A DNA stretch of 64,000 bases from Tistrella mobilis (GTDB lineage: Bacteria; Pseudomonadota; Alphaproteobacteria; Tistrellales; Tistrellaceae). Made by a program: the position numbers and the translations under genes. A model generated the notes under the pieces. The model worked only from the letters and a program-made list of their open reading frames with translations, was not told where the DNA came from and made no database searches. The stretch is taken from the NCBI RefSeq assembly GCF_041468085.1, contig NZ_CP121017.1, forward strand, positions 2,917,676 to 2,981,675, given 5' to 3'. Positions 8,667 to 21,964 of this stretch are shown piece after piece (within the stretch, counting starts at the first letter, position 1; each line of letters opens with the position of its first letter).

Positions 8667-8741
8667 GGGCGCGTAGCTCAGCGGTAGAGCACACCCTTCA
8701 CACGGGTGGGGTCACAGGTTCAATCCCTGTCGCGCCCACCA
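8667..8741 (+). tRNA. tRNA-Val (anticodon CAC)
   Basis: A 75-nt cloverleaf with encoded CCA: acceptor GGGCGCG paired with CGCGCCC, D arm GCTC/GAGC, anticodon stem CACCC/GGGTG with loop TTCACAC (anticodon CAC, reading GUG), T arm ACAGG/CCTGT with loop TTCAATC, discriminator A at 8738 and CCA at 8739-8741. A UUCG-capped terminator hairpin follows 8 bp later. The 3' end faces the phage-like block, a typical prophage insertion position, but I found no second copy of its 3' end beyond the block. Confidence 0.95.
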
Positions 8742-8748
8742 ATTCGAC

Positions 8749-8784
8749 AAGGCCCCCTGCATCTTCGGATGCCGGGGGCTTTGT
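8749..8784. terminator. Hairpin terminator with UUCG tetraloop, shared by tRNA-Val and the virion cluster
   Basis: Stem AAGGCCCCC-T-GCATC, loop TTCG closed by C-G, then GATGC-C-GGGGGCTTT, with a single T/C mismatch. A short T run follows on the + strand. It lies just after tRNA-Val (+) and 25 bp past the stop of the last virion gene (-), so it can end both transcripts. Confidence 0.8.
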
Positions 8785-8808
8785 TCATATCGGGCCTCCT
8801 GATCCGTC

Positions 8809-10257
8809 TCAGGCGCCGATGCGCACGGCGATCTCGGCCATGTCAGGGCCAAGCCGGCGCCAGACCCGCCCCAGGATCCGCGGATCGCACGGGTCATCCA
8901 GCCGCTCGTCGGGCCCCAGGCAGCGGGCCAGGATCTCCCCTGCCCCGCCGGCCATGGCAATCGCCACCCGCCCCGGCACCACCGGCCCGGTCAACCGCAG
9001 GGGCACCCGGCCGGCGAAGGCAATCCGTGCACCATCCCCGCCAGTATCGCCGCCCACCAGCGCCGGCGCGGTCGACACGACGGCAAAGGCGATAGCCGCG
9101 CCGAACCGGCCGGTCACCCGCCCGTCCTGATCGATGCCGACCGCAGCCGCCGGTGACGCCGGCGGGCAATCCGGCGCCAGGGGGACATATTCAGCGAAAT
9201 CCGCCCCGACGGCATTGATCGTGCCGGCAGCATTCAGGGAACGTCCGGTCGTCCCGTTCACCCCCAGCGCAAGGGCACAGGCCGGGCCGCCGCCCGATCC
9301 GGCAACGTTGTAGAACCGGGCCGTCACTCCGGCATGGCCGCCGATCATCGCGGCCTCCGCCCCTTCGGCCGCCGTCACGCTGCGCAGCCTCAGCATGGCC
9401 GTGCCGACGCCGGCATCCATCACCTCCAGATGGCCCTCGGCGGTCTGGATCAGGTCCCAGCTCCGTGCCGCCCCGCCCGTCGCCTGCAGGCGGAGCCCCA
9501 CGGCGGAACCGGCCAGATGCAGCCCCCGCGCCGGTGCCGTGGTGCCGATGCCGAGTGCCGCCCGATCGGCCGGCACGGTCAGCCGATCCACCCCCTGGGT
9601 CGCCAGCACCAGCGGTGCGGCAATGTCGGTCCGCAGCCGCAGCGTGCCGCCCTGCCAGGCCAGAGCTGCCTTGCGGCTGCCGGCCTCCCGCAGCGCCAGC
9701 GCCGCCTCGCCGCCGGCATTCACATGGGCCGAAACCGCGGCCGCGGTCGCATGGCGCACCACCAGCCCCTCGCCATCCACCGCGCTGCTGTCGCCCACCA
9801 CCAGCTTCTGCCCGATATCCAGCCGGCCGGTGACGACATCGCCGGCTTTCGAAACCCGGGTCGCAAGTGCTGCATCCAGCCCGGTCACCTCGGTGGTGGC
9901 ATGGGTATGGGCCAGCATGGTGGTCGCGGTCCAGGCGCCGGCCCGGCGGACGACGAAGGCCTGTTCGGCCTCGACCAGAACCACCCAGCCGTCGCGGGCG
10001 GTGACGAACCGCCAGCCGCCCGCGGTCCAGAGCGCCAGCTGCCCGTCGCGCCAGGCCCAGGCGCCCGAGGCCCCGGGTGGTATCAGATAGGCATCGCCCT
10101 CGGCCGGGCTGGCGGGGGGCAGGGTCTGGCTGCGGCTCTTGACCGCGATCTGCGCCAGAACATCCAGCAGGGCGAGCGCTTCGTTATGGGTGACGTGTTT
10201 CTGCGCCTGGGCGGCCGCAAGCAGCGGCAGTCCCAGGCGCGGCGTGGCATCGGCCAT
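8809..10257 (-). CDS. DUF2793 tail fibre/baseplate-type protein
   Basis: 482 aa from ATG 10257 (AAAGG ribosome site; a longer upstream frame is poor). The N-terminus TPRLGLPLLAAAQAQKHVTHNEAL is the hallmark of DUF2793, a domain of alphaproteobacterial phage and GTA-like tail proteins. About residues 1-110 form that domain. The middle is Ala/Gly-rich and low in motifs, as in fibre shafts. The end includes INAVGADFAEYV, a sequence often seen near the tip of phage fibres. Last gene of the virion block, 43 bp after the gp15-like gene. Likely a receptor-binding or fibre component; its target is unknown. Confidence 0.8.
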   Translation of the reverse strand: MADATPRLGLPLLAAAQAQKHVTHNEALALLDVLAQIAVKSRSQTLPPASPAEGDAYLIPPGASGAWAWRDGQLALWTAGGWRFVTARDGWVVLVEAEQAFVVRRAGAWTATTMLAHTHATTEVTGLDAALATRVSKAGDVVTGRLDIGQKLVVGDSSAVDGEGLVVRHATAAAVSAHVNAGGEAALALREAGSRKAALAWQGGTLRLRTDIAAPLVLATQGVDRLTVPADRAALGIGTTAPARGLHLAGSAVGLRLQATGGAARSWDLIQTAEGHLEVMDAGVGTAMLRLRSVTAAEGAEAAMIGGHAGVTARFYNVAGSGGGPACALALGVNGTTGRSLNAAGTINAVGADFAEYVPLAPDCPPASPAAAVGIDQDGRVTGRFGAAIAFAVVSTAPALVGGDTGGDGARIAFAGRVPLRLTGPVVPGRVAIAMAGGAGEILARCLGPDERLDDPCDPRILGRVWRRLGPDMAEIAVRIGA

Positions 10258-10300
10258 GGCCGGACCTTTCGGAATCTGACGGAAAAGACGGACCGCGCCC

Positions 10301-13300
10301 TCAGGGCACCACGGTCGCATAGCGCGCCGGGCCGGGCCCGGTCGCCGCACCGATCTGTGCGACCTTCAGGCCAAGAGTGGCGGGGGAGGTGAAGAAGTCG
10401 GCATATTGCTGTGCGGCGGAATAACTCCAGCTGCTCGCGCCCTCGACGATCACCGTGCGGCGGACGGCTGCCGTCTCGATCGGGCTCGCCAGGATGTCCA
10501 GCTGGTAGCGCTCGGCCGTCTCGCTCATCGGTTCGTCGGCGCCATCGGTCCAGCCGGCCAGGCGGTCGGCCCGCAGCCAGCGGATCAGCACCGAGCCGTC
10601 GGTCTGGCGCTTCGCCTGGAGATCGACCGGCCGGAACGGCTGCAGCCCGGCGCCGGTCAGGCTGTGGATGCGGGTCGGGCCGATGGTACCCGCAAGCGTA
10701 ATCGCCCGGAAATACAACAGCCTACCGATATCCGCCGGCCGCCAGCCCATCACCGCCAGCCGCTCCGGATCGAGCAGATGGACGGCTTCACCGATCACAT
10801 GGGCACCGACCGCCGCTTCGGTACCGCGCAACCCACGCCGCAGCCGCGACAGCCGCCAGAGGCCGGCCGACAGACGCTCGATCGCCCCGAAGCTCAGGAT
10901 CTCGGCCCCGACCAGGGCCAGGCTGCGGCCGCTTTCGGCATCGGCCTCGGTGATCCCGGCATCGACCCGCAGATCGTCGCCGAAATCGACCGTGACGCCG
11001 GCCAGATCATCGCGGAGCGTCAGCGGCCCAGCGGCCAGCAGGGTGGTTGTCGTACCGCTTGCCGCCGGTGCCAGCACCGCCACCTCCCGCCAGGGGCCGC
11101 CGGGGGTGTCTGCCACTTCCACCCGTGCCGCGCGCAGACCGCCGCCACCGCCGGTCACCATCACGACCAGCCCGGGATCGGGGGCGGGTTCCACAACCGG
11201 CGGCAGGTCGAGCACCGTCACCTCGGGCAGGCCCTCAGTCAGCGCCGGGGCCGCCGTCACGGGGGGAATGGCATCGGCGCCGGGGCGGGCGGTGCCGTGC
11301 AGCCCGTCATGATCGGCCACGGCCTCCACCTCGATCAGCCCGGGCGTGCCGAAAGCCATGCGTTCGATCCGAAGCCGGGCCGGCATCATCGGCAGGCGTG
11401 GATCGGCCGCAAGCGCAATCACGTCGCCCGGCTCCAGCAGCAGATCGCCGAAACCCAGACGGAAGCGCCAGCGATCGCGCCCCACCAGCGCCTCGTCGGC
11501 AAGGGTGCGGGCGATGCGTGCCGCCTCGTCCGCCGTCAGCACCAGCGGCAGTTCCACAGCCTGGCGATCCTCCGCGCCGGGAACGCTGCGCCGGGCGCGG
11601 GCAAGCCCCGGCCGGCCGTCGGCGGCACCGTCGATAAAGGCGACGCCGATCTCGCGCGGCATCTCGGCCTGCTGGATACGGGTGCGCTCCACCAGCGGCG
11701 GCGGCTCGTCGCCGGCACCATGCGCGCCCAGCCGGCCCGGCTCGATCACGGCGGCGACCGGCCCGCCGCGGGGTACGAAGGCCAGTCGGCCGTCGCGCTC
11801 CACCGCATCCACGAACCAGCTGGCAAGCAGGGGCTCCAGCGCCTCGCGCGCGCTGCCCTGGCGGGCGACGACATAGCCGCGCAGCGTCATGCCGCCGACA
11901 CCGGTCAGGTCCAGCTCGTCCGGATCCACACCGGCAGCCGCGGCCAGATCGGCGATCACCGCCCCCAGATCCGCGGTCTCCGCCGGCCGGGTGAGCGCCA
12001 GCCAGCGGTCGATCCAGGCGGCATTGTCTCCCGCCGGCACCCAGGGCACCGCCATCAGCCGCCCGCCCCCCGCGGCGAAACCGACCACATGGCCAGGCTC
12101 GATCTCGACCGGCGTCGTCACCACCCGCCCCGCCCGATCGATCAGCGCCACCCGATCGGTGAAGACCACGCCGACGATTCCGTCCGCCGCCCGGTGCAGG
12201 CCGACCGGCCGCTGATCCGGCCAGGGGGTGAGCGTCTGGTCCCGATCGGCGGTGGCGGTCAGCCCCGCAAGATGGCGCAGCCGCGCCCCCGACAGCAGCA
12301 GCAGGCCGTCATCGTCGCCGCGCATCAGCGTCCGTGCCGCCGGCAGGCCATCCAGGATCATCGTGGCATCCGCATCGCTGCCGCCGTCGTCCAGCGCCCA
12401 GAGCGCCAGCGTTCCGCCCGGTCGCCCGCCCAGGATCCAGATCCGCGTTCCCCAGGCGGTAACGCCGCGAACATCGCCCGCCACCATCCCGGGCAGCGCC
12501 ACCAGCCGATGGCGGCCGGTCTCGATCTCCACGAACACCGCCGCCGCCTCGCCGTCGCGCGCATAAAGCTGGACCGGGCGGTCGGCCGGCGCCCAGGCGC
12601 AGCCGCGCCGGGCCGAGGTCAGCGGGATCGCGTGGCTCCAGCGTTCCTCCGCCAGCCAGCGGCCGGCAGAGCTGCGCTGGCGGGCGACATGACGGACGCG
12701 GTTGACCATGTCGCTGGCGGTCACATGGCGGACGATCGCGCCATCCTCCGCGCCGCCATCCATCAAGGTACAGGCATCCGTCCAGGCATAGGCGTTGTCG
12801 CCGGCAATCCCGCCCGCCGGCCCCGTCAGCGCGTCGATCGGCGCGCCCGCGATCAGCGAGGGCAGCCGCCGCAGGCCGTCGCGGGCGACCGGGGTGACGC
12901 TGGCAAAAGCGGCGGGATCCACCCCCGCCACCACGGGGCTGCCACGCACGATTTCGGCCTCGATCAGCGGCACCCGGTTGCCATAGGGGCCAAGCGGCAG
13001 ATTCTGGAAGACGAGATAGGCGAGATCGCGGAAGGCGGGGGTCGCCGCGGGCCCTTCATGGGCCAGGATCAGCGGATCGGGTGCCTGATCCGCCGTGCCG
13101 CGATGGAGCCTGAAATACCGGCCGGGCGCCGCAGAAGCGGCAATGCCCGCCAGCCCCGCCGCGGGATCGGCCGACCAGATCAGCGTCTCGTCGGCCCAGA
13201 TCCGCCGGATGCCCAGGATCGGGCCCTGGGCGAACCCCACGGCGAAGCTCGCGAAGTACTCGTACTCCACCCGTCCGGCCGACAGCAGCCGGCCGGCGCC

Positions 13301-13591
13301 CAGACTGCCGAACAAGCCGCCGGACGTGGTGACGGGGATGATGCGGCGACGTTCGCTGATCGGCCGCGCCCAGATGATGTTGCCCGCCAGCCGCACGCTG
13401 CCATAGACCCGCGGAATGATCCGGCCATGGCCGGTGGTCTGGACCGCCAGATCCTGCAGCCGCGGCCCCTCGCGCGGCTCGAACCCGCCGCTCGCCGCCC
13501 GGCGCGCCAGGCTGCCCAAGGCATCCCCCAGCCCGCCCGAGGGCAGCAGCCCGCTGATCAGCGAGGTGAGAAAGAACCCGGCCATGATCAC
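10301..13591 (-). CDS. GTA gp15-like tail host-specificity protein
   Basis: Large baseplate/tail-tip protein of 1096 aa. An N-terminal hydrophobic stretch is followed by the typical GTA/phage opening (QDLAVQTTGHGRIIPRVYG, GNIIWARPI). A central region (ADLAAAAGVDPDELDLTG, ALEPLLASWFVDAVERDGR) and later segment match the Phage-tail_3 type family (PF13550). The canonical RcGTA protein is about 1300 aa and has a TIM-barrel glycosidase-like part, which I do not recognise here. Start is either GTG 13591 (GGAG at good spacing, overlapping the DUF2163 stop) or ATG 13585. The NlpC/P60 gene that normally precedes it is absent. Confidence 0.82.
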   Translation of the reverse strand: MIMAGFFLTSLISGLLPSGGLGDALGSLARRAASGGFEPREGPRLQDLAVQTTGHGRIIPRVYGSVRLAGNIIWARPISERRRIIPVTTSGGLFGSLGAGRLLSAGRVEYEYFASFAVGFAQGPILGIRRIWADETLIWSADPAAGLAGIAASAAPGRYFRLHRGTADQAPDPLILAHEGPAATPAFRDLAYLVFQNLPLGPYGNRVPLIEAEIVRGSPVVAGVDPAAFASVTPVARDGLRRLPSLIAGAPIDALTGPAGGIAGDNAYAWTDACTLMDGGAEDGAIVRHVTASDMVNRVRHVARQRSSAGRWLAEERWSHAIPLTSARRGCAWAPADRPVQLYARDGEAAAVFVEIETGRHRLVALPGMVAGDVRGVTAWGTRIWILGGRPGGTLALWALDDGGSDADATMILDGLPAARTLMRGDDDGLLLLSGARLRHLAGLTATADRDQTLTPWPDQRPVGLHRAADGIVGVVFTDRVALIDRAGRVVTTPVEIEPGHVVGFAAGGGRLMAVPWVPAGDNAAWIDRWLALTRPAETADLGAVIADLAAAAGVDPDELDLTGVGGMTLRGYVVARQGSAREALEPLLASWFVDAVERDGRLAFVPRGGPVAAVIEPGRLGAHGAGDEPPPLVERTRIQQAEMPREIGVAFIDGAADGRPGLARARRSVPGAEDRQAVELPLVLTADEAARIARTLADEALVGRDRWRFRLGFGDLLLEPGDVIALAADPRLPMMPARLRIERMAFGTPGLIEVEAVADHDGLHGTARPGADAIPPVTAAPALTEGLPEVTVLDLPPVVEPAPDPGLVVMVTGGGGGLRAARVEVADTPGGPWREVAVLAPAASGTTTTLLAAGPLTLRDDLAGVTVDFGDDLRVDAGITEADAESGRSLALVGAEILSFGAIERLSAGLWRLSRLRRGLRGTEAAVGAHVIGEAVHLLDPERLAVMGWRPADIGRLLYFRAITLAGTIGPTRIHSLTGAGLQPFRPVDLQAKRQTDGSVLIRWLRADRLAGWTDGADEPMSETAERYQLDILASPIETAAVRRTVIVEGASSWSYSAAQQYADFFTSPATLGLKVAQIGAATGPGPARYATVVP

Positions 13592-14421
13592 GTCGTCTCC
13601 AGCGCGCCCGGATCGGGGGTGAAGGGAAAGCCGCGGAAATTGACCGCGTTGTTGAAGCGTGCGGCACAGGTGGTGATCCGCTTGTCACAGCCGACCCGAA
13701 GCCGGTAGCCGCAACCGGCAAGGGGGGCCGTGGGCAGCGGCCGGGCAAGGACGATGCCACCGGGGGTACTGGTCGCGACATCGACCACCAGCCCGTCCAG
13801 CGCACCGTCCAGGATCGTCAGACGGCCGCCATCGAACCAGCCGGCCGGCTCGGTCCGGGCCGGATCGGCGATCGCAGTGGCGGTTGCCGCGGCAATCACC
13901 CCCTCGACCTCGAACCCTGTCCCCGCCAGCGCCACGCCACAGCGGAGGTCGGCGAAATCGGCTGCGCAATCGGGGCCGTAGGCGATGCCGATGCCCTGCT
14001 GCAGGCGCTGTGACACGCCGCGCAGTTCCGCCCGCCAGCGGCTGGCCGTCATGGAAATCTCGCCGATGCGGCCCGCCGCCAGCAGCAGCCGTCCGGCTTC
14101 GGGCTCCGTCCAGTCGGCAATGGCGAAGTCCACCCGCGCATCATCGAACCGCCCGCAGGCGATATCGGTGGCCGAGACCGCGCCGTCATCCAGCGGTCCG
14201 CCGACATCCAGCCCGTCGACGCCCAGCCCGATACGGGCGTCCACCGCCCCCGGCACCATGCCGGCACGGGCGCGATAGAGCGTGCCTTCCACCTGAAGGT
14301 CGTGATCGTGATCGGTCAGGCCGATCACCACACCGTCACGACGCTCCACCCGCCAGAGCCTGGCCAGGCTGCCCAGCGGCCGGGCCAGTGCAGCTGCAAG
14401 CGCCGCCGAAGTCGTGCGCAT
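13588..14421 (-). CDS. DUF2163 tail protein (GTA gp13-like)
   Basis: 277 aa, the usual family length. Family features are visible: LARLWRVERRDGVVIGLTDHD near the N-terminus, GISMTAS-like segment EISMTASRWRAELRG, and the Cys-containing YGPDCAADFADLRCGVAL. In RcGTA this is one of the iron-sulfur-type hub proteins of the baseplate, and the conserved cysteines (DCAADFADLRC, GCGYRLRVGCDKRITTC) fit that. Lies 14 bp after the DUF2460 gene and overlaps the start of the gp15-like gene by 4 bp. Confidence 0.88.
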   Translation of the reverse strand: MRTTSAALAAALARPLGSLARLWRVERRDGVVIGLTDHDHDLQVEGTLYRARAGMVPGAVDARIGLGVDGLDVGGPLDDGAVSATDIACGRFDDARVDFAIADWTEPEAGRLLLAAGRIGEISMTASRWRAELRGVSQRLQQGIGIAYGPDCAADFADLRCGVALAGTGFEVEGVIAAATATAIADPARTEPAGWFDGGRLTILDGALDGLVVDVATSTPGGIVLARPLPTAPLAGCGYRLRVGCDKRITTCAARFNNAVNFRGFPFTPDPGALETT

Positions 14422-14435
14422 GGCTCAAGCCCTCC

Positions 14436-15071
14436 TCAAAGCCGGATCTCGACCAGCGGCACGGCGCGCAGGGCCCCGATGCCATAGTCTTCAAGCGTCG
14501 CCGGCAGATGGTCGGTATCGAAGCGGACCGGCACGTCGAAGGCGAAGCCGGCGGTGAGCACCGCTCCCGCCGCCGGCGCCACCGCGAAGGTGACAAGGCC
14601 GGTGGTCGCATCGACGGAAAAAGCCGCCTCGGGCAGCTCCCCGCCGTCAGCCGCCACCCGCACGCTGCCCGCGACCGGCTTGACGATCCGCCGGTCCACA
14701 TGCCAGGGCGGCGCCTCATAGCGCTTGATCAGGGCGAAGCTGGTGGTGCTGCCGTCCCCCTGGCCCAGCGGCTGATCCAGCGGCCCCGGCGGACCGTTGC
14801 CGGCATGGCTGCTGCAATCGGTCCAGTCCTTGAAGCGGAAGCCGCAGGCCCGGCCGCGGCGGGCGCGGAAGAAGGCGATCAACCGGGCCAGCTGCTCAAG
14901 TCCGCGCACGCCCATGGCGATGTCATACCGGGCGCGCGCCTCGGCCCAGTCGGCATTGCGCCGTTCATGGCCCGAGGCCAGCACCACCACATCGGTGGAA
15001 AACACCGGCCCGCCGGCAGATCCCCAGGCGATGTCCTCGGGGAAGCGGGTGTCGTGAAAATCCTCGATCAT
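14436..15071 (-). CDS. DUF2460 tail protein (GTA gp12-like, distal tail protein)
   Basis: 211 aa, typical length. Begins MIEDFHDTRFPEDIAWGSAGG and contains RRNADWAEARARYDIA, FFRARRGRACGFRFKDWTD and RIVKPVAGSVRVA, all recognisable DUF2460 (TIGR02217) segments. In RcGTA the homologue forms the distal tail ring that joins the tail tube to the baseplate. Preceded by only 12 bp from the 50-aa gene. The tape-measure gene expected at this position is not there. Confidence 0.92.
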   Translation of the reverse strand: MIEDFHDTRFPEDIAWGSAGGPVFSTDVVVLASGHERRNADWAEARARYDIAMGVRGLEQLARLIAFFRARRGRACGFRFKDWTDCSSHAGNGPPGPLDQPLGQGDGSTTSFALIKRYEAPPWHVDRRIVKPVAGSVRVAADGGELPEAAFSVDATTGLVTFAVAPAAGAVLTAGFAFDVPVRFDTDHLPATLEDYGIGALRAVPLVEIRL

Positions 15072-15083
15072 CGCATCCGACCA

Positions 15084-15236
15084 TCAACCATCGCGGCGGC
15101 GCGCCCGTTCGGCCGCCTCTGCCGCGGCACGGGCCGCCCAGGCGCGACCCGGCTCCAGCCGGTCGCGCCGGCCGGCCCGGCCGGCAAGTTCATCTGCCGC
15201 GGCGGGTCGCGGCGCGGTATCGACCGTCTCGGTCAT
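15084..15236 (-). CDS. Small 50-aa protein in tail cluster (chaperone/gp10-like position)
   Basis: Begins at ATG 15236 after a strong GAGGAG ribosome site and ends 12 bp before DUF2460. It is charged and Ala/Arg-rich (MTETVDTAPRPAAADELAGR, then an alpha-helical AARAAAEAAERARRRDG). Its position between the tail-tube candidate and DUF2460 is where tail chaperones and the tape measure occur in GTAs. It is far too short to be a tape measure. Homology cannot be assigned from sequence alone. Confidence 0.6.
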   Translation of the reverse strand: MTETVDTAPRPAAADELAGRAGRRDRLEPGRAWAARAAAEAAERARRRDG

Positions 15237-15249
15237 GTCTCTTCTCTCC

Positions 15250-16041
15250 TCAAAATTCCGTACAGGTCGGGGGTGCGGCCGCCATGGCCTCAAGGGCGAG
15301 CGACGCGCCATCGAAACCGCCGGCGCCGATCAGGCCGGGCGGCAGCGCCAGCCGGCGCCCGGATCCGGCCCGGCCCAGTTCCAGGGTCGCGGCCACCGGC
15401 CCGGCCTGGGCCAGCCGGCTGGCGAGCGTTCCAGACGTCACCCCCGGTACCAGCCGGAGCGTCAGCTCCACGCGCCCGCCAAGCCAGGCAACCGGCGCCG
15501 GCTGATCCGGCGCGGTCATGGCATGAAGCCGGGCCTCCATGGTGAGCCGGCAGCGCCGGAGCGGCATCACCGCCGCCCCGTCGAGCGACAGCCGGAGATC
15601 GCCTCCCGTCAGGCGCGGCGACCCGTCCGCCGGCCCGAAATCCGCCGCCGTCTCCGGCACCGCCACGAGGCCGCGGAACAGCGCCACGAACCGCGGCGGG
15701 CCGGTCTCATCGAAGTCGAGCACCAGCCGCGCCAGACGGGCACCGGTGATCCGGCTCGCGAGCCCGCCCGCCGACGGGCCGAGCCGCACGGTCAGGGCCG
15801 GCTCCGCGCCCATCGACGGCAGAAGCAGGTCGACCAGGGCCAGGCTTGCGGGCATTTCCAGCGCCAGCGTCGGCGCGGCCGACCCGGCCGGCAGGACCTT
15901 CTGGCCCCGCCGGGCCGGATCGGCGCCGGTGCGGATCGGATGCCTGATCTGAATGTCCAGCGCCGTCACCACCGGCACCAGGCGGGTGCCGCTCATCGTC
16001 TCCAGCTGTACCGCCAGGGGCGCCGGGCTTCGGATCTGCAT
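15250..16041 (-). CDS. Probable major tail (tube) protein or tail-associated protein, unknown family
   Basis: 263 aa from ATG 16041 with GAGGAG ribosome site. Beta-rich composition, motifs such as LAVQLETMSGTRLVPVVTAL and GGDLRLSLDGAAVMPLRRC. The gene lies after the tail-terminator-like gene and before the small chaperone-position gene, the standard slot for the tail tube protein. I do not recognise a family signature, so the role rests on gene order. Confidence 0.55.
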   Translation of the reverse strand: MQIRSPAPLAVQLETMSGTRLVPVVTALDIQIRHPIRTGADPARRGQKVLPAGSAAPTLALEMPASLALVDLLLPSMGAEPALTVRLGPSAGGLASRITGARLARLVLDFDETGPPRFVALFRGLVAVPETAADFGPADGSPRLTGGDLRLSLDGAAVMPLRRCRLTMEARLHAMTAPDQPAPVAWLGGRVELTLRLVPGVTSGTLASRLAQAGPVAATLELGRAGSGRRLALPPGLIGAGGFDGASLALEAMAAAPPTCTEF

Positions 16042-16056
16042 GCGATGCTCTCCTCC

Positions 16057-16485
16057 TCACGCGCCGTCGATCCGCCAGAGCACCGCCAGGGCCAGCCTTG
16101 CGCCCTCGGGATCCAGCATCAGAGCGGCGCGGCTGACCGCGGTGAGTTCAGCCATCACCCCGCCGCCCGCCTCCAGCGCCGTGCCGGGCGGGAAGGCCGC
16201 GAGCACGACATCCGCGGCGGCATCGAGCGCCGCCATGCCGCTGCCGGGTGGTGCCACCACCTCGACGGCCTGGCGGCCGGTCAGCATGGCATGGCCGCCG
16301 GTGCCGGCGGTCACCGCCTCCATCGGACCGGGGGACGGCACCAGCCAGGCACCCGCGGCAGGCGGGGGGCCGCCGCGGGTGTTGGGCCAGCGCACCGGCA
16401 GGCCGGCCGTCGCCGCCGCCGCCCCCAGCCGGGCATCGAAAGCGGCGCGCAGCCGCGCCTGCACGTCCTGAGCGAGCGAGGTCAT
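16057..16485 (-). CDS. Tail-terminator/completion-like protein
   Basis: 142 aa starting at ATG 16485, overlapping the preceding stop by 4 bp (ATGA). The N-terminal helix MTSLAQDVQARLRAAFDARL and the following segments (VRWPNTRGGPPPAAGAWLVP) are what DUF4128-type tail terminators look like: a short protein beginning with a helix that binds the tube end and a phrase reading 'pv..pn....p....yi.p'. Identification is by size, this pattern and gene order. Confidence 0.6.
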   Translation of the reverse strand: MTSLAQDVQARLRAAFDARLGAAAATAGLPVRWPNTRGGPPPAAGAWLVPSPGPMEAVTAGTGGHAMLTGRQAVEVVAPPGSGMAALDAAADVVLAAFPPGTALEAGGGVMAELTAVSRAALMLDPEGARLALAVLWRIDGA

Positions 16486-16874
16486 GACCCGCCCTCCCCG
16501 GCGGCGGGCGCCCTGAGCTGCAGCCGCCAGAGATCGAGCACCGCCACCGGGCGGATCGCCTCTTCGATCCGCCACTCGGCCGTGCCGACCACGATCAGGT
16601 CGCCGGGGACGGGGGCGATGCCCAGCCCTTCGACCAGGGCCGGCCGTCGGGCCGTGGAAGCGGCCGAGAGGTCGGGCATCTGGCCGGCGGCGACGGGATC
16701 GCGCCCCCAGATCAGCCGCCCCGACGCCATCCGGCTCCGGGTCTCGGTGGCAAGCCCGTTCGCCGGATCGAAGGCAGCGGTCACCCGGTCCAGCGCACAG
16801 CCGAGCGCAAGCCCGCCCGCCCCTGCCAGCAGATCGCCCAGCATCCGGCCGAGCACGGCATCGATCCGGGTCAT
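16482..16874 (-). CDS. Small head-tail joining protein candidate
   Basis: 130 aa. Overlaps its upstream and downstream genes by 4 bp each. Contains a beta-rich middle (LIVVGTAEWRIEEAIRPVAVLD) similar in style to head-closure proteins that hold a 'Dilvi.g..y.v' segment. No confident family assignment. Position between the adaptor-like protein and the terminator-like protein suggests a head-closure or stopper role. Confidence 0.55.
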   Translation of the reverse strand: MTRIDAVLGRMLGDLLAGAGGLALGCALDRVTAAFDPANGLATETRSRMASGRLIWGRDPVAAGQMPDLSAASTARRPALVEGLGIAPVPGDLIVVGTAEWRIEEAIRPVAVLDLWRLQLRAPAAGEGGS

Positions 16875-17332
16875 GTCCGCACGAGCCGGCGACGATGACG
16901 CACCGGTGCCAGCGGTGCCAGCAGACGGGCGGCAAGGGCCAGCGCACCGCCGGCCCCCGCCGCCGCGCCCGGGGTCTCGCCGTAATCGATGGCGACATCA
17001 CCCAGCGTCAGCCGCCGGGCGGCACTGCCCGCCGCCTGTTCGGCAAGCGGCCGGTCCAGCGCCGCCAGCGCCAGTTCGATACAGGCCTGCACGACCGGGG
17101 CCGGCGCGGCGGCGCCGTCCAGCCCGATGCCGGTCGCGACCCGCGGCCAGGCCAGAGGCTGGGCGGGATCGGCCGGCCGGCCGACGAAATCGTGGAAGGC
17201 ATCGATATGGGCCGTGGCCTCGACCAGCGCCGCCTGGCGCCGGTCGGCCGGGGCTTCGGCCCAAAGGGTCCGGCCGCGGGCGGCGTGATGGGCATCGGCC
17301 CGGGCGAGATCGGCATAGGTGGCGGCGGTCAT
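16871..17332 (-). CDS. Head-tail adaptor / DnaT-like phage connector protein
   Basis: 153 aa from ATG 17332, 21 bp after the capsid gene with a GAGAGGGGGGA ribosome site. Starts TAATYADLARADAHHAARGR and continues with a mostly helical sequence (RRQAALVEATAHIDAFHDFVGRP) typical of the 'putative DnaT-like' phage connector proteins that sit after the capsid gene. The helical N-terminal half and gene order support a gp6-type adaptor that docks on the portal. Confidence 0.6.
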   Translation of the reverse strand: MTAATYADLARADAHHAARGRTLWAEAPADRRQAALVEATAHIDAFHDFVGRPADPAQPLAWPRVATGIGLDGAAAPAPVVQACIELALAALDRPLAEQAAGSAARRLTLGDVAIDYGETPGAAAGAGGALALAARLLAPLAPVRHRRRLVRT

Positions 17333-17353
17333 CGGACGGTCCCCCCTCTCGCC

Positions 17354-18331
17354 TCAGGCCACGGTCAGCCGCACGCCGGCCAGGCTCTTCGGATCGGTGG
17401 CCACGGCCTGCCAGTTGGTCCCGATCTCAAGGCCCGCATCGGTGGGATTGATGCCGCCGCCCACCACATCCCAGGCAAAGCCGCGCAGCCGGACGTTGAA
17501 GGCATATTCGCCCTGGATGCGCATCACCAGGTTCTCAAGCCCGGTGATCACATCCGAGACGATCGAGCGCTCCTCGCTCTCCGCCACCTCGATCGCATCC
17601 TCGACCAGCCCGAGCACCCGATAGCGGTCGGGGGTTCCCGGCGCCACCAGCGCCGGGCTGTCGATCACCAGGGTCGGCCGGCCGAAACTCGCCACCGTGC
17701 CCTGATAGATCGTGACCCCGGCCACCTCGAACACCTTGTCGGCGATGCTCTGCGCCATCAGGTCGTAATAGGGCTTGGAATGCATCACGAAGCACGAGAT
17801 GCGGCCGCCGGCATCGCCCAGCCGGGCCATGGCCCGGACCAGCGCACCATGGGCGAGGCCCGGCTCGGCCTCGCCCGAGATGTCGAGATTGAGCGCAGTC
17901 ACCCTCGACAGCGCCGCCGAGGCGGCCCTCAGGGCGGTATCGACATAGTCGACCGCCACCGCCTTGCCGATCTGCCGGCCGAGCAGGAACGACATCTCGC
18001 CCGGATCGCGGCCCAGCTTGCGCAGACTGTCGAGGGTATTGGCCACCGGGCCGATCCGGCGGTTGATCTTGATGCCCACCGTCTCGGCCTGGGCAAGCGG
18101 CGTGTCGGCCACGCCCGTCACCGCATCGATGTCGCGGCGGGTGACGAGCGAGGCGACGCGCGAGATGAAGCTCTCGGCCGCATAATGGCCGCGGCGGCGC
18201 TCCGGCACCAGCCGGATGGCCCCGCCAGAGGCGGCGTTGAAGGCATCGGCGTTCTGTTCAACGACTTCCACCATGCCGCCGAAGAACTCTTCGGGTGCAA
18301 TGCGGAAGTCCTGCTGGGTTCCAATGGTCAT
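17354..18331 (-). CDS. Major capsid protein, Gp13-like type
   Basis: 325 aa coat subunit. Features resembling the Gp13-like major capsid family: MTIGTQQDFRIAPEEFFGGM, NAASGGAIRLVP, a long helical region with LGRQIGKAVAVDYVDTALRAA, CFVMHSKPYYDLMAQSIAD and the C-terminal beta segment EYAFNVRLRGFAWDV. It does not carry the HK97-protease fusion seen in RcGTA g5-type operons, and no protease gene is next to it, so maturation would have to be uncleaved. 33 bp after the scaffold-like gene. The ribosome site (AGAGGAAA) is about 15 bp from the start, rather far. Confidence 0.8.
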   Translation of the reverse strand: MTIGTQQDFRIAPEEFFGGMVEVVEQNADAFNAASGGAIRLVPERRRGHYAAESFISRVASLVTRRDIDAVTGVADTPLAQAETVGIKINRRIGPVANTLDSLRKLGRDPGEMSFLLGRQIGKAVAVDYVDTALRAASAALSRVTALNLDISGEAEPGLAHGALVRAMARLGDAGGRISCFVMHSKPYYDLMAQSIADKVFEVAGVTIYQGTVASFGRPTLVIDSPALVAPGTPDRYRVLGLVEDAIEVAESEERSIVSDVITGLENLVMRIQGEYAFNVRLRGFAWDVVGGGINPTDAGLEIGTNWQAVATDPKSLAGVRLTVA

Positions 18332-18364
18332 GGCAGTTTGTGTTTCCTCTGAAGGATCTGAAGA

Positions 18365-18925
18365 TCAGGGATCGAGGTCGAGATAGGCGGCGCGGCCATG
18401 CTCGCGGATGAAGCGCGCGCGTTCGGCCGGCCCGCCCAGATCGGCGCGGCGGCGATGACGGCCGGCACCGGGCTCGGCCCGGGCGCCGCCGCCATGGCTG
18501 TCGGGGGCGGCGAGATAGGCGGCCCCCTCTCCCGCCGCCCAGTCGGCGACGAAATCGGGCAAGGGCCGCGTGCTGCCATCGGCAAGCCGGGCGGTCAGTG
18601 CGCGCGCCCCCTCATCGCCCGCCACCTCGATCAACGGGCGGAGCAGGGCCGCCGCCCCCGCCACCAGTGCCGGCGCCACGCCGGCCCGGGTGAGCGCGGT
18701 TTGCAGCCCCTGATCGACGAGCAGGCGGTGCAGTTCGCTGCGTTCGCGCTCCATGCCCGCCGCAAGGCTGGCAAGCTCCGCGCGATGCCGACGGTCGAGC
18801 CGGGCGCGCAGCGCGGCCAGGGCCGCGGCCTCGTCGGATGCGGGTGCGGCATCGCCGCCATCAGGCAATAAGGGATCCTCGGGCAGTGCCGGCGGTGCTG
18901 CCGGATCCCGGGTCTGGTCGGTCAT
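18365..18925 (-). CDS. Scaffold-like protein upstream of the capsid gene
   Basis: 186 aa, acidic and Pro/Ala-rich at the N-terminus followed by a long predicted helix (AALAALRARLDRRHRAELASL, then AAGMERERSELHRLLVDQG). A basic Arg-rich patch (GAGRHRRRADLGG) lies near the C-terminus. Disordered, helical, non-enzymatic proteins just ahead of the coat gene are usually scaffolds. Only 12 bp after the portal gene. No family recognised. Confidence 0.6.
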   Translation of the reverse strand: MTDQTRDPAAPPALPEDPLLPDGGDAAPASDEAAALAALRARLDRRHRAELASLAAGMERERSELHRLLVDQGLQTALTRAGVAPALVAGAAALLRPLIEVAGDEGARALTARLADGSTRPLPDFVADWAAGEGAAYLAAPDSHGGGARAEPGAGRHRRRADLGGPAERARFIREHGRAAYLDLDP

Positions 18926-18937
18926 GATCGGATGTCC

Positions 18938-20326
18938 TCAGGGCTCTGCGGCTGCGCCGGAAGCGGCGCCGGCCGGCAGGATTTCACCGCGGGTGAGTGC
19001 CCGACGCAGTTCGCCGCGGGCGATCGCCCCGCTTTGCCAGGCCTCGACCAGCGCGGTCAGTTCGTCGGCCGCCATCGGCCGGGGCCAGTAATCGGTGTTC
19101 AGCGCCACCCGCGCCGGCGCCGCCGGTTCGATGCCAAGCCAGGGGGCCGCAAGATCCAGCGCCCGGCCAAGCCCGTCTCCCGCCGCCTGGGCAAGCGCCG
19201 CGAGGGCGGAATTCTCTCCCTGGCGATGGATCTCGGCGGTCAGCGCCGCTTCGGCGGCCTTCTTCTCGGGCGCCAGCATGCGGGCGCCGAGCGCCGCCAT
19301 CTGCGCTTCCTTGCGATCGAGCAGGCGTTCGAGCACGCCCAGGCCCTCGCCGCGGAACTCCAGAAAGAAGGCTTTGGCCTCGGGCGCCTCCAGCACCCAG
19401 GCCTCGCCGGCGCCGATCGCCAGAGGTTCCATGCCGTCGAAACGCTGGCCGGTCACCACAGCGGTCGGCAGGCCGGTGTAATGGGCGCCATGCTCCAGAT
19501 CGGCGCTGGTGCGGTAATGCGAGAGGTTGACCTCCACCAGGTCGAGCAGCGGCGGCCGCGCCACCTCCAGCCCCGGGCCGCGCGGGCCGATGCACAGAAA
19601 GGGGATGCGGCCGAGCGGGCGGCCGGCGGCGCGCGGCTCGATCTCGGCCACCAGGGTCGGCCGGTCGCCACCGCCACCGGCCCAGAGCCGCTGGCGATAG
19701 ACGCCGTCGGGGTCGAGATCCAGGCTCCGGCGGCGCCGGATGCCCGCCTCATCCTCGCCCTCGTCCAGAAGGACATAAACCAGGCGCGGCACGGCGCGGC
19801 CATGGCCGCGGGCCAGCCGCCAGTCCAGAACCGCCTCGGCCGGATAGGTCGCCAGATAGGGCAGCCGGCCGGCTTCGGCCGCGGCTGCCCGGGTGGGTGG
19901 CGGTGCCTCGTCGCCGGGCGGATGGTCGACCAGCAGGCCGATACGGCCGGTGGTGAGCAGTTCCGCCACGACATGTTCGGCCAGGCGCCGGAAGCCGTCG
20001 CCGGTGCCGGTCGGATCGGCGATCACCGGGGCAAGGCCGGGTGCCGCGTCGATCTCGGGCGGTTTGCGAAAGACCAGCCCGCTCAGGCCATCGATGGTGC
20101 GGGCGGTGGCGTTGTAGAACAGGGCCCGGTCGCGATAGGCGCGATATGCCGCTTCGCTCTGGCCATCCAGCCGTGGCAGATAGCGTTCGCCGGCGGCATG
20201 CACTGCCTCCTGTCCCGCCGCGACGTCGCGGCAGCGGGTCCAGGCGGCCCGGCGGGCGGCGTGGGCAGGATGGACGCGGTCGGCCGCGCCCGGCGCACCG
20301 GGCGGGCCCGGTCCGAATGTCGTCAT
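18938..20326 (-). CDS. Phage portal protein, DUF4055 family
   Basis: 462 aa, forms the DNA-packaging ring at one vertex. Family-like segments are RYLPRLDGQSEAAYRAYRDRA, LFYNATARTIDGLSGLVFRKPP, LTTGRIGLLVDHP, EVNLSHYRTSADLEHGAHYTGLP and EGLGVLERLLDRKEAQMAALGARML, the last being characteristic of DUF4055. Starts at ATG 20326 after GGAAAG and lies 35 bp beyond the terminase gene. Intact. Confidence 0.85.
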   Translation of the reverse strand: MTTFGPGPPGAPGAADRVHPAHAARRAAWTRCRDVAAGQEAVHAAGERYLPRLDGQSEAAYRAYRDRALFYNATARTIDGLSGLVFRKPPEIDAAPGLAPVIADPTGTGDGFRRLAEHVVAELLTTGRIGLLVDHPPGDEAPPPTRAAAAEAGRLPYLATYPAEAVLDWRLARGHGRAVPRLVYVLLDEGEDEAGIRRRRSLDLDPDGVYRQRLWAGGGGDRPTLVAEIEPRAAGRPLGRIPFLCIGPRGPGLEVARPPLLDLVEVNLSHYRTSADLEHGAHYTGLPTAVVTGQRFDGMEPLAIGAGEAWVLEAPEAKAFFLEFRGEGLGVLERLLDRKEAQMAALGARMLAPEKKAAEAALTAEIHRQGENSALAALAQAAGDGLGRALDLAAPWLGIEPAAPARVALNTDYWPRPMAADELTALVEAWQSGAIARGELRRALTRGEILPAGAASGAAAEP

Positions 20327-20361
20327 CGGATCTTTCCTCGATATGTTTGAACAACGCGGAC

Positions 20362-21771
20362 CTAAAGACCGCCCAGCTTCAGGCGGACCACACGCCCGCG
20401 TTCGGCATCCAGCCAGGACAGCAGCTGGCTCAGCGCGTCGACCTGGTCGTCATGGGCGGCATTGGGGAAGATCGTCGCCTCGCGAACGAAATCCCCGGCC
20501 CAGTCTGCCCCCGCCTCGATCGTGAAGCCGCCCGCCTCCAGCCGCGGCGTGGTAACCGCCAGCCGGGTAAGTTTGTCGGTCACCGGCCGCACCGCCTGGA
20601 CCGGCAGGCGGCCGGGCATGGCCTTCAGATCCTGGATCAGCGACTGGCCCGAGGCCTTGTCCTCGACCAGGATCACCGAGGGTCGCCAGCGCGCGGCCAG
20701 GCGGGCCGCCTCGCGGCGCAGGGCCGGATATTCCAGCCGCTCGCGGAACACCTCCGCCAGATGCAGCCCGTCTTCATGTTCGATGACCGTCAGGCAGACG
20801 CTCGGATCGTTGAGCGCATCCGCCTTGTAGGCGGTGTCCCAGCTCTGCAGCACCCGCCGGATGCGTGCCGGATCCGGCATGGCCGCCGGCCGCAGCCAGG
20901 CAGCCTTGATCAGCCCGCCGGCGGCCGGGGCCGGTCGCTGCAGATACTGCGCAGCATAGCCCGCCTCGCCCAGCATGCGCCGGGCCTCGGCCAGTTCCTC
21001 TTTGCCTTCGCGTTCGGGATGCAGCGGCGTGCCCGGTTGACGCACCATCCGCAGCCGGCCGAAATGGATGCGCTGAACGCTGTCCACCTCGGCCGGCAGC
21101 GACAGATGGGTCCAGCCGCCACGGGCCAGCAGATGGCCCGAAAGGTCGGCCTCGTGCAGGCGCTGCATCACCACGATCATCGCGCCCCGGCGCTTGTCGT
21201 TCAGCCGGGTGGAAAAGGTCTGATCGAACCAGGTCAGTGCTGCCTCACGCAGTGCCGTCGATCGGGCACGGCGCGGATCATGCGGATCGTCGACGATCAG
21301 CAGATCGCCGCCGTCGCCGGTCAGCGTGCCGCCGATCGAGGTCGCAAAACGAAAGCCGTTGGCGGTGGTGGTGAAGCGCTGGGCGCGGTCACGTCCGCGG
21401 CGGATCCGGGTCTCGGGAAAAAGATACCGGTACCAGCCGCTCTTCATCACCTCGCGGGTGTCGAGCGAATGGCGCAGGGCCAGTTCATGGGCATAAGAGG
21501 CGACGATGATCCTGAGCGTCGGATCATGCCCCAGCCGCCAGGCCGGATAGGCCACGGAAACGGTCAGGGATTTGAGCGACCGCGGCGGTACATTGATGAT
21601 CAGCCGCCGGATCTCGCCCCGGCGCACCGCCTCCAGATACTCGGCCATCAGATCGATATGCCAGTTGCCCAGAAACAGGCTGCCGGGGTCGACGGTGCCG
21701 AAGCAGCGGGCAATAAAGCTGGGGAAATGGTCCGCAGCAAGCAGGTCCAGCGCAGTCCCCGGTGTCGTCAC
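20362..21771 (-). CDS. Phage terminase large subunit (DNA packaging ATPase/nuclease)
   Basis: 469 aa motor protein that cuts and pumps DNA into the capsid. ATPase motifs: variant Walker A NVPPRSLKS (residues 60-68), Walker B LLIVDD (157-162), and the arginine/Q-motif region RTL-like LGNWHIDLMAEYL near the start. The C-terminal RNase H-like nuclease carries QSWDTAYKA, VLVEDKASGQSL and NAAHDDQVDALSQLL. Start is GTG 21771, with no clear ribosome site of its own; a 14-codon upstream frame ends in a GTGA overlap and may provide coupling. No small terminase gene was identified. First gene of the virion block. Confidence 0.93.
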   Translation of the reverse strand: MTTPGTALDLLAADHFPSFIARCFGTVDPGSLFLGNWHIDLMAEYLEAVRRGEIRRLIINVPPRSLKSLTVSVAYPAWRLGHDPTLRIIVASYAHELALRHSLDTREVMKSGWYRYLFPETRIRRGRDRAQRFTTTANGFRFATSIGGTLTGDGGDLLIVDDPHDPRRARSTALREAALTWFDQTFSTRLNDKRRGAMIVVMQRLHEADLSGHLLARGGWTHLSLPAEVDSVQRIHFGRLRMVRQPGTPLHPEREGKEELAEARRMLGEAGYAAQYLQRPAPAAGGLIKAAWLRPAAMPDPARIRRVLQSWDTAYKADALNDPSVCLTVIEHEDGLHLAEVFRERLEYPALRREAARLAARWRPSVILVEDKASGQSLIQDLKAMPGRLPVQAVRPVTDKLTRLAVTTPRLEAGGFTIEAGADWAGDFVREATIFPNAAHDDQVDALSQLLSWLDAERGRVVRLKLGGL

Positions 21772-21812
21772 CTGGGGAAACGGCCGCTGCGCTGCCGCAG
21801 AAAACCCGTCAT
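21768..21812 (-). CDS. Possible 14-aa leader peptide coupled to the terminase
   Basis: ATG 21812 follows a GGAGACGAAC ribosome site and encodes MTGFLRQRSGRFPR. Its TGA overlaps the GTG of the terminase gene. Because the terminase GTG lacks its own ribosome site, translation coupling through this mini-frame is plausible. It could instead be the remnant of a lost upstream gene such as a small terminase. Very short, so chance is a real alternative. Confidence 0.3.
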   Translation of the reverse strand: MTGFLRQRSGRFPR

Positions 21813-21964
21813 GTTCGTCTCCGGCTATGTTGAAAGAACAGGGTAAAGATGGCGGAAAACCGCCGGCATCGCCGGGGGTAACTCGCCATCATGGTGAAAT
21901 AGTTACATCAAAATCGGCCAATGGTTGCATGGGAAGTTGCTGCAACACCGCCCTGGCCATCGTG

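Follow-up and report, generated by a model that had tools for sequence, protein, structure and literature searches.

Gene content of the virion cluster

The subject of this analysis is a compact cluster of virion genes in a 64,000-nucleotide stretch of Tistrella DNA (hereafter the window). The genome measures 6.30 Mb in four contigs, and the window belongs to the 4.9-Mb one, C4. The cluster spans positions 8809-21771 and consists of 13 minus-strand genes in a tightly packed, operon-like run. As stated in the original prediction, which was made from the sequence of the window, all genes are intact, i.e. the 13 frames are open with zero internal stops. Three Tistrella species were compared, namely the window species, a species termed here G001, and T. 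mobilis KA081020-065 (G002).

At the upstream end the cluster encodes the large terminase TerL (469 amino acids, 20362..21771; Terminase_6C, phrog_38), in which the Walker-type ATPase motif (PPRSLKS), the LLIVDDP segment and the acidic residues of the nuclease are intact in all three species. TerL is followed by a portal protein of the DUF4055/phrog_145 type (18938..20326, identified by domain matches), a head scaffolding protein overlooked at first reading (18365..18925; phrog_206, E 1e-6), and a Gp13-like major capsid protein (17354..18331; PF20036, E 2e-99). Next come the head-tail adaptor Ad1 (16871..17332; phrog_477), the head closure or stopper protein Hc1 (16482..16874), assigned from a weak match to phrog_161 (E 0.003) together with its position, and a tail terminator (16057..16485; PF13554, Phage_tail_terminator_5, and phrog_179). 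A diverged tail tube protein (263 amino acids, 15250..16041) matches PF18906 (Phage_tube_2) weakly, below the cut-off, in each of the three species. Between it and the distal tail protein lies an open reading frame (ORF) of 50 codons (15084..15236), delimited by the three-species alignment and its own ribosome-binding site; it had first been read as a 75-residue ORF, and its protein starts at 15236. The remaining genes resemble those of RcGTA, the gene transfer agent (GTA) of Rhodobacter capsulatus: a distal tail protein of the g12 family (14436..15071; DUF2460/TIGR02217, above cut-off), a baseplate hub protein of the g13 family (13588..14421; TIGR02218, above cut-off, Gp84_N and BR0599), and a megatron-like, g15-like baseplate protein (10301..13591; Phage-tail_3 and Rcc01698_C, below the NCBIfam GTA_megatron cut-off). 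The last gene encodes a DUF2793 fibre/spike-type protein (8809..10257, with the start probably at 10257 and not 10350). The domain matches thus agree with the predicted pairing of a g12/g13/g15-like tail with a Gp13/DUF4055 head.

Upstream of TerL, the three-species alignment reveals a 14-codon leader ORF (21768..21812, minus strand), whose stop overlaps the GTG start of TerL, making translational coupling possible. Further upstream lies a conserved 28-bp element, TGTAACTATTTCACCATGATGGCGAGTT (21880..21907, minus strand), with inverted ends (AACT...AGTT), which is found in all three species, has no second copy in the genome even with 3 mismatches allowed, and is a putative promoter or operator; a scan for sigma-70 promoters gave none. 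At the other end, the predicted terminator and tRNA are both present: a strong hairpin resembling a bidirectional intrinsic terminator (8742..8800, minus strand) is common to the cluster and a plus-strand tRNA-Val gene (8667-8741), which adjoins the 3' end of the cluster and points its own 3' end towards it. We looked for a duplicated attachment (att) site of the tRNA-Val and found none.

The absences listed in the original prediction (integrase, repressor, replication, lysis, protease, NlpC/P60 and tape measure) hold at the locus. In all three species the space between the tube and DUF2460 genes contains the 50-codon ORF and no tape measure, no NlpC/P60 gene or gap for one is found between hub and megatron, and host genes lie on both flanks, with no protease, integrase or replication genes accompanying the cluster. 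No small terminase and no toxin or cargo gene were found in the cluster, and neither a repressor nor lysis genes are linked to the structural genes, so that the content of a complete prophage is missing. Nor does the genome contain a complete prophage of the same kind elsewhere, which would have counted against the prediction; genome-wide there is one hub match and one Terminase_6C match. A plasmid collection yielded no nucleotide match to the cluster.

Conservation and selection in Tistrella

The cluster is present in all three Tistrella species at an identical site (between glmS–tRNA-Val and DinB), in identical order and with all frames open. The capsid protein of the window species is 94% identical to that of both other species. 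Pairwise ratios of nonsynonymous to synonymous substitution rates (dN/dS) do not exceed 0.30 for any cluster gene except the tube (about 0.5), with values of about 0.1 for capsid and portal and about 0.17 for TerL, in line with the predicted conservation of the locus under purifying selection. Synonymous divergence (dS) between the window species and the other two is 0.18-0.45 in the cluster and 0.24-0.28 in the flanking glmS and DinB. G001 and G002 are closer to each other than to the window species in cluster and flanks alike, a pattern as in vertical descent. Each species has about 4,250 codons in the cluster, none of them an internal stop, whereas neutral simulations at the observed divergence gave means of 14 (GC-biased) to 54, so that decay is not tenable. 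Among 385 genomes of the class, a full-length capsid match was obtained in Tistrella alone, the others being negligible. We therefore hold with high confidence that the cluster encodes a genus-wide, selected, domesticated virion of Tistrella.

A fourth near copy, covering the first part of the cluster, was found in a 6.2-kb metagenomic contig (IMGVR_UViG_3300042248_000104), which is 93-95% identical in TerL, portal and capsid. This fragment of the Tistrella cluster is an example of a GTA-like locus catalogued as a virus.

The tail module

The tube gene is the fastest-evolving of the cluster, a feature not recognized at first reading, and at the protein level it changes several times faster than most of its neighbours. 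In G001 its last residues are altered through a single-base difference in a run of C, possibly a sequencing error. Fold prediction gave an unusable model (predicted local distance difference test, pLDDT, 32), a comparison with PDB sequences gave no match, and a profile comparison with other Phage_tube_2 proteins was negative. The low Pfam score and high dN/dS fit a former tube freed from the constraints of a polymer.

The 50-codon ORF is 98-100% identical across the three species (dN/dS 0.04-0.05) and matches no family. Its near-invariance and its own ribosome-binding site make it very probable that the gene is real. The tape measure of RcGTA serves five tube discs, pitched at 38.3 angstroms, with a helix of 113 residues (PMC7296036); on this scale 50 residues could reach no further than about 7.5 nm, i.e. 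one to two discs. That it is a relic or miniature tape measure is speculation.

A genome-wide search for the tape-measure family TMP_3 identified one protein (1463 amino acids). It is encoded on a 740-kb replicon, within a tail island that has no head genes (L155:527-12022, G000:C1 about 163,500-175,000). The island encodes a Phage_tube_2 tube, small ORFs, DUF1799, the TMP_3 protein, and proteins of 1479 and 264 amino acids. We considered it as the missing tail supply or a conserved partner of the cluster, which is unlikely since the corresponding site of T. mobilis pTM2 lacks the island; it has no close plasmid relatives. One possibility for the island is an F-type tailocin, another a remnant.

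Phage relatives and known gene transfer agents

The relatives of the capsid are mostly phage proteins of 40-55% identity encoded in contigs with a different gene order, and the closest TerL outside Tistrella is 51% identical. The original prediction described the cluster as being of mixed parentage. The case for this is weaker than it seemed, since an IMG/VR phage contig (L046) joins a DUF4055-type portal, a Gp13 capsid and Ad1 with DUF2460 and the hub, with a TMP_3 tape measure between them. Given this combination, the mixed parentage probably reflects the ancestral phage and not later assembly. In another phage contig (L077) the tail genes, of which chaperone, NlpC and lysis were labelled by position and sequence and not by family search, follow the order tube, chaperone, 797-residue tape measure, DUF2460, hub, NlpC-type ORF, megatron, DUF2793 and lysis; compared with it, the Tistrella cluster lacks chaperone, tape measure, peptidase and lysis. 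Both phages differ from the cluster in having tape measures of 786-797 residues, L077 also in its NlpC-type ORF and in-line lysis genes, and their identities to the Tistrella proteins are only 25-55%.

The cluster shares with RcGTA-like elements (Rhodogtaviriformidae, the alphaproteobacterial type I) the TIGR02217, TIGR02218 and megatron-type baseplate proteins in the same order, as well as vertical inheritance, lysis genes at an unlinked site, elevated GC in the first two codon positions, and low-carbon proteins. It differs in having a Gp13 capsid and a DUF4055 portal, a scaffold instead of a protease, and no tape measure, NlpC/P60, DUF6456 or small terminase, and in being restricted to Tistrella within our sample. 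The genome contains no PF04860 (the RcGTA-type portal) and no TIGR02219 (g14 NlpC/P60), the latter with a positive Caulobacter control. Judged by gene content, membership in the RcGTA family is excluded, because the head genes and portal family differ, and DUF6456 and TIGR02219 are absent.

The GTA of Caulobacter crescentus (RogA-GafYZ) resembles the Tistrella system in its LexA/CI-like repressor with helix-turn-helix (HTH) and S24 domains, a likeness by domain type, and in its separate auxiliary loci. In RogA the S24 domain is without its catalytic residues (PMC9632790); the Tistrella repressor described below keeps a Ser and a Lys, and no GafZ family member is present. The Bartonella agent BaGTA (Bartogtaviriformidae) is, by its published description, likewise an independent alphaproteobacterial domestication with a structural core of 11-14 kb and genus-wide occurrence (PMC9662315), but no linked replication origin or secretion-system neighbourhood is seen at the Tistrella cluster. 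In the open literature that could be searched we found nothing linking Tistrella to GTAs and no experiment on such particles.

A remote lysis and repressor locus

The original prediction proposed searching the rest of the genome for lysis genes, and a conserved locus combining them with a repressor lies on C4 at about 3,598,025-3,600,665, some 660 kb away from the cluster. A genome-wide search for GH108 found two places, one in a contractile-tail element and the other in this isolated module. The contractile-tail element (L139, G000:C4:3013000-3031000) is phage-like and possesses its own GH108 endolysin and a 944-residue PhageMin_Tail tape measure. The isolated locus comprises five genes, encoding a LydA-type holin (PF16083), an endolysin (GH108 and PG_binding_3), a 126-residue protein with a weak spanin-like match (phrog_17576), a divergently oriented XRE-S24 repressor of the CI/LexA-like type (phage-repressor match, phrog_4), and a DUF6362 HTH protein, for which no relatives were found among viral contigs. 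In all three species the frames are intact and the host neighbours are the same (TNase/thrS on one side and iron-dependent alcohol dehydrogenase on the other), with dN/dS of 0.09-0.44. No structural genes adjoin the locus.

As read from the sequences, the repressor keeps the Ser (GESM) and Lys (GLIK) residues 43 positions apart, which is the spacing of the dyad in lambda CI and makes damage-triggered self-cleavage possible. RcGTA has its lysis genes at an unlinked locus, rcc00555/6 (PMC9638019), and the Caulobacter GTA is repressed by the LexA/CI-like RogA (PMC9632790). We infer that the structural cluster and the remote locus work together; the genes of such a two-part system would be too far apart for any one head to hold them all.

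Proposed mechanism and alternative explanations

On the favoured reading, a phage particle domesticated by the host is inherited vertically, with the cluster as its structural half and the lysis and repressor locus as the other. Relief of CI/LexA-like repression would allow the operon that follows the conserved upstream element to be transcribed, and a scaffolded Gp13-type procapsid would assemble on the DUF4055 portal. TerL, having neither a small terminase nor its own replicon to recognize, would pack the heads with host DNA, whereupon adaptor, stopper and terminator rings would close the head, to be capped by the RcGTA-type baseplate. With tape measure and NlpC/P60 lost, the tail is probably a stub of no more than one or two tube rings. 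Holin and endolysin from the remote locus would then free the particles, which would deliver DNA to kin. From this gene complement we infer that DNA is packaged and transferred.

For the two-locus particle as a whole, a DNA-transferring GTA of independent origin is the most likely function, and on balance a probable one, given that TerL, portal and capsid persist at low dN/dS and with their motifs intact. The more specific version, in which such a GTA delivers DNA through a stub tail, with the tube serving as a one- or two-ring adaptor and the 50-residue protein as the remnant of a ruler, is put forward tentatively, as we consider it somewhat doubtful. Known GTAs trace to a few independent domestications, and recognizing new ones is difficult because they resemble defective prophages (PMC11841831). 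If the GTA interpretation is true, Tistrella would add another independent origin, from an alphaproteobacterial lineage that belongs to neither the RcGTA- nor the BaGTA-bearing orders, and few known tailed DNA-transfer particles would be as reduced as a stub-tailed GTA. It would also pose the structural question of whether an RcGTA-type baseplate is functional on a virion without a tape measure; the two-locus layout is open to single-gene deletion tests in the culturable Tistrella.

Composition provides an additional line of evidence. Kogay et al. reported that RcGTA-like clusters are enriched in GC at the first two codon positions but not at the third, and have less side-chain carbon than viral homologues (PMC7360931). 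In the Tistrella cluster GC at positions 1 and 2 is 0.675, compared with 0.621 in neighbouring host genes (p=0.001), and at position 3 it is 0.847 compared with 0.838 (p=0.46). Side-chain carbon is below that of viral relatives for the portal (0/19 viral proteins lower), TerL (0/9), capsid (7/69) and hub (2/15). The tests favour a GTA-like cluster and are supportive, not decisive.

A number of points weigh against a GTA. DUF2460 exhibits no clear effect in side-chain carbon (7/16 viral proteins lower), and both composition tests rely on roughly called neighbour ORFs and few GC-matched viruses. The sample consists of three species only, in a family that contains this genus alone. The tube gene is under relaxed constraint, and it may instead be that the tail, having lost tape measure and peptidase, no longer functions. 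The GafA-like regulator that the original prediction proposed to look for elsewhere in the genome is absent (PF20057/DUF6456, GafA/GafZ; positive Caulobacter control). An operator or regulatory motif common to the TerL upstream region and the lysis and repressor locus was sought and none was found, so that the partnership of the two loci is argued from their co-conservation and complementary gene content. Particle formation, DNA packaging and transfer are themselves predictions from the gene content. Of the proposal that this is an undescribed GTA or domesticated particle, the domesticated, intact, vertically inherited and selected cluster thus stands, whereas no GafA/GafZ-like regulator is present and the mixed parentage is not unique.

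Among the alternatives, a domesticated particle that does not transfer DNA (e.g. a stub-tailed, capsid-bearing bacteriocin-like or protein-delivery particle, or a defence/exclusion device, freed by the remote lysis genes) is unlikely. It would accommodate the conserved baseplate and DUF2793 fibre as well as the loss of tape measure and tail peptidase, which would impair DNA delivery, but tailocins discard heads and terminases, whereas here TerL, with intact motifs, portal, scaffold and capsid are all kept at low dN/dS, and the cluster carries no cargo or toxin gene. We also give little credence to the two loci being unrelated, i.e. to a domesticated particle regulated otherwise and a lysis and repressor locus serving programmed lysis or another prophage. 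The lack of a common operator motif and of structural genes beside the lysis locus would be expected in that case, but the gene contents are complementary, the same three species retain both loci, each at its site and under selection, and the split layout resembles those of RcGTA and the Caulobacter GTA (PMC9638019, PMC9632790).

Much less probable is the structural part of a still-mobile prophage or satellite that depends on other elements for replication, tape measure or packaging specificity. Candidates exist in the genome, namely the contractile element (C4, about 3.02 Mb) with its own tape measure and the C1 tail-only island with a TMP_3 tape measure and Phage_tube_2 tube, but the position and divergence of the cluster follow the host, and T. 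mobilis pTM2 does not have the island at the corresponding site, nor does the island have close plasmid relatives. An old cryptic prophage, inserted at tRNA-Val before the genus split and not yet decayed, is strongly disfavoured, for although the 3' end of the tRNA is on the cluster side, as with prophages that target tRNAs, and life-cycle, tape measure and peptidase genes are missing, there are zero stops against 14-54 expected, dN/dS is well below 1 over 13 genes, no att duplication was found, and the separate lysis and repressor locus is also kept.

Virion-type clusters elsewhere in the class

Portal relatives in the class were examined as possible related clusters and rejected, as they sit in other, differently composed clusters. 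Separately, another alphaproteobacterial genus possesses a compact virion-type cluster (G236:C2:126000-145900 and G317:C3:161000-180900), which comprises a terminase-like protein, DUF4055-type portal, capsid, Ad1, tube, a tape measure of 812-837 residues and two large tail proteins. Its portal was found in three species of that genus, two of which were compared in detail, and a reversed, 94%-identical gene resembling aspartate/glutamate racemase lies inside the cluster. This cluster is a second GTA-like candidate.

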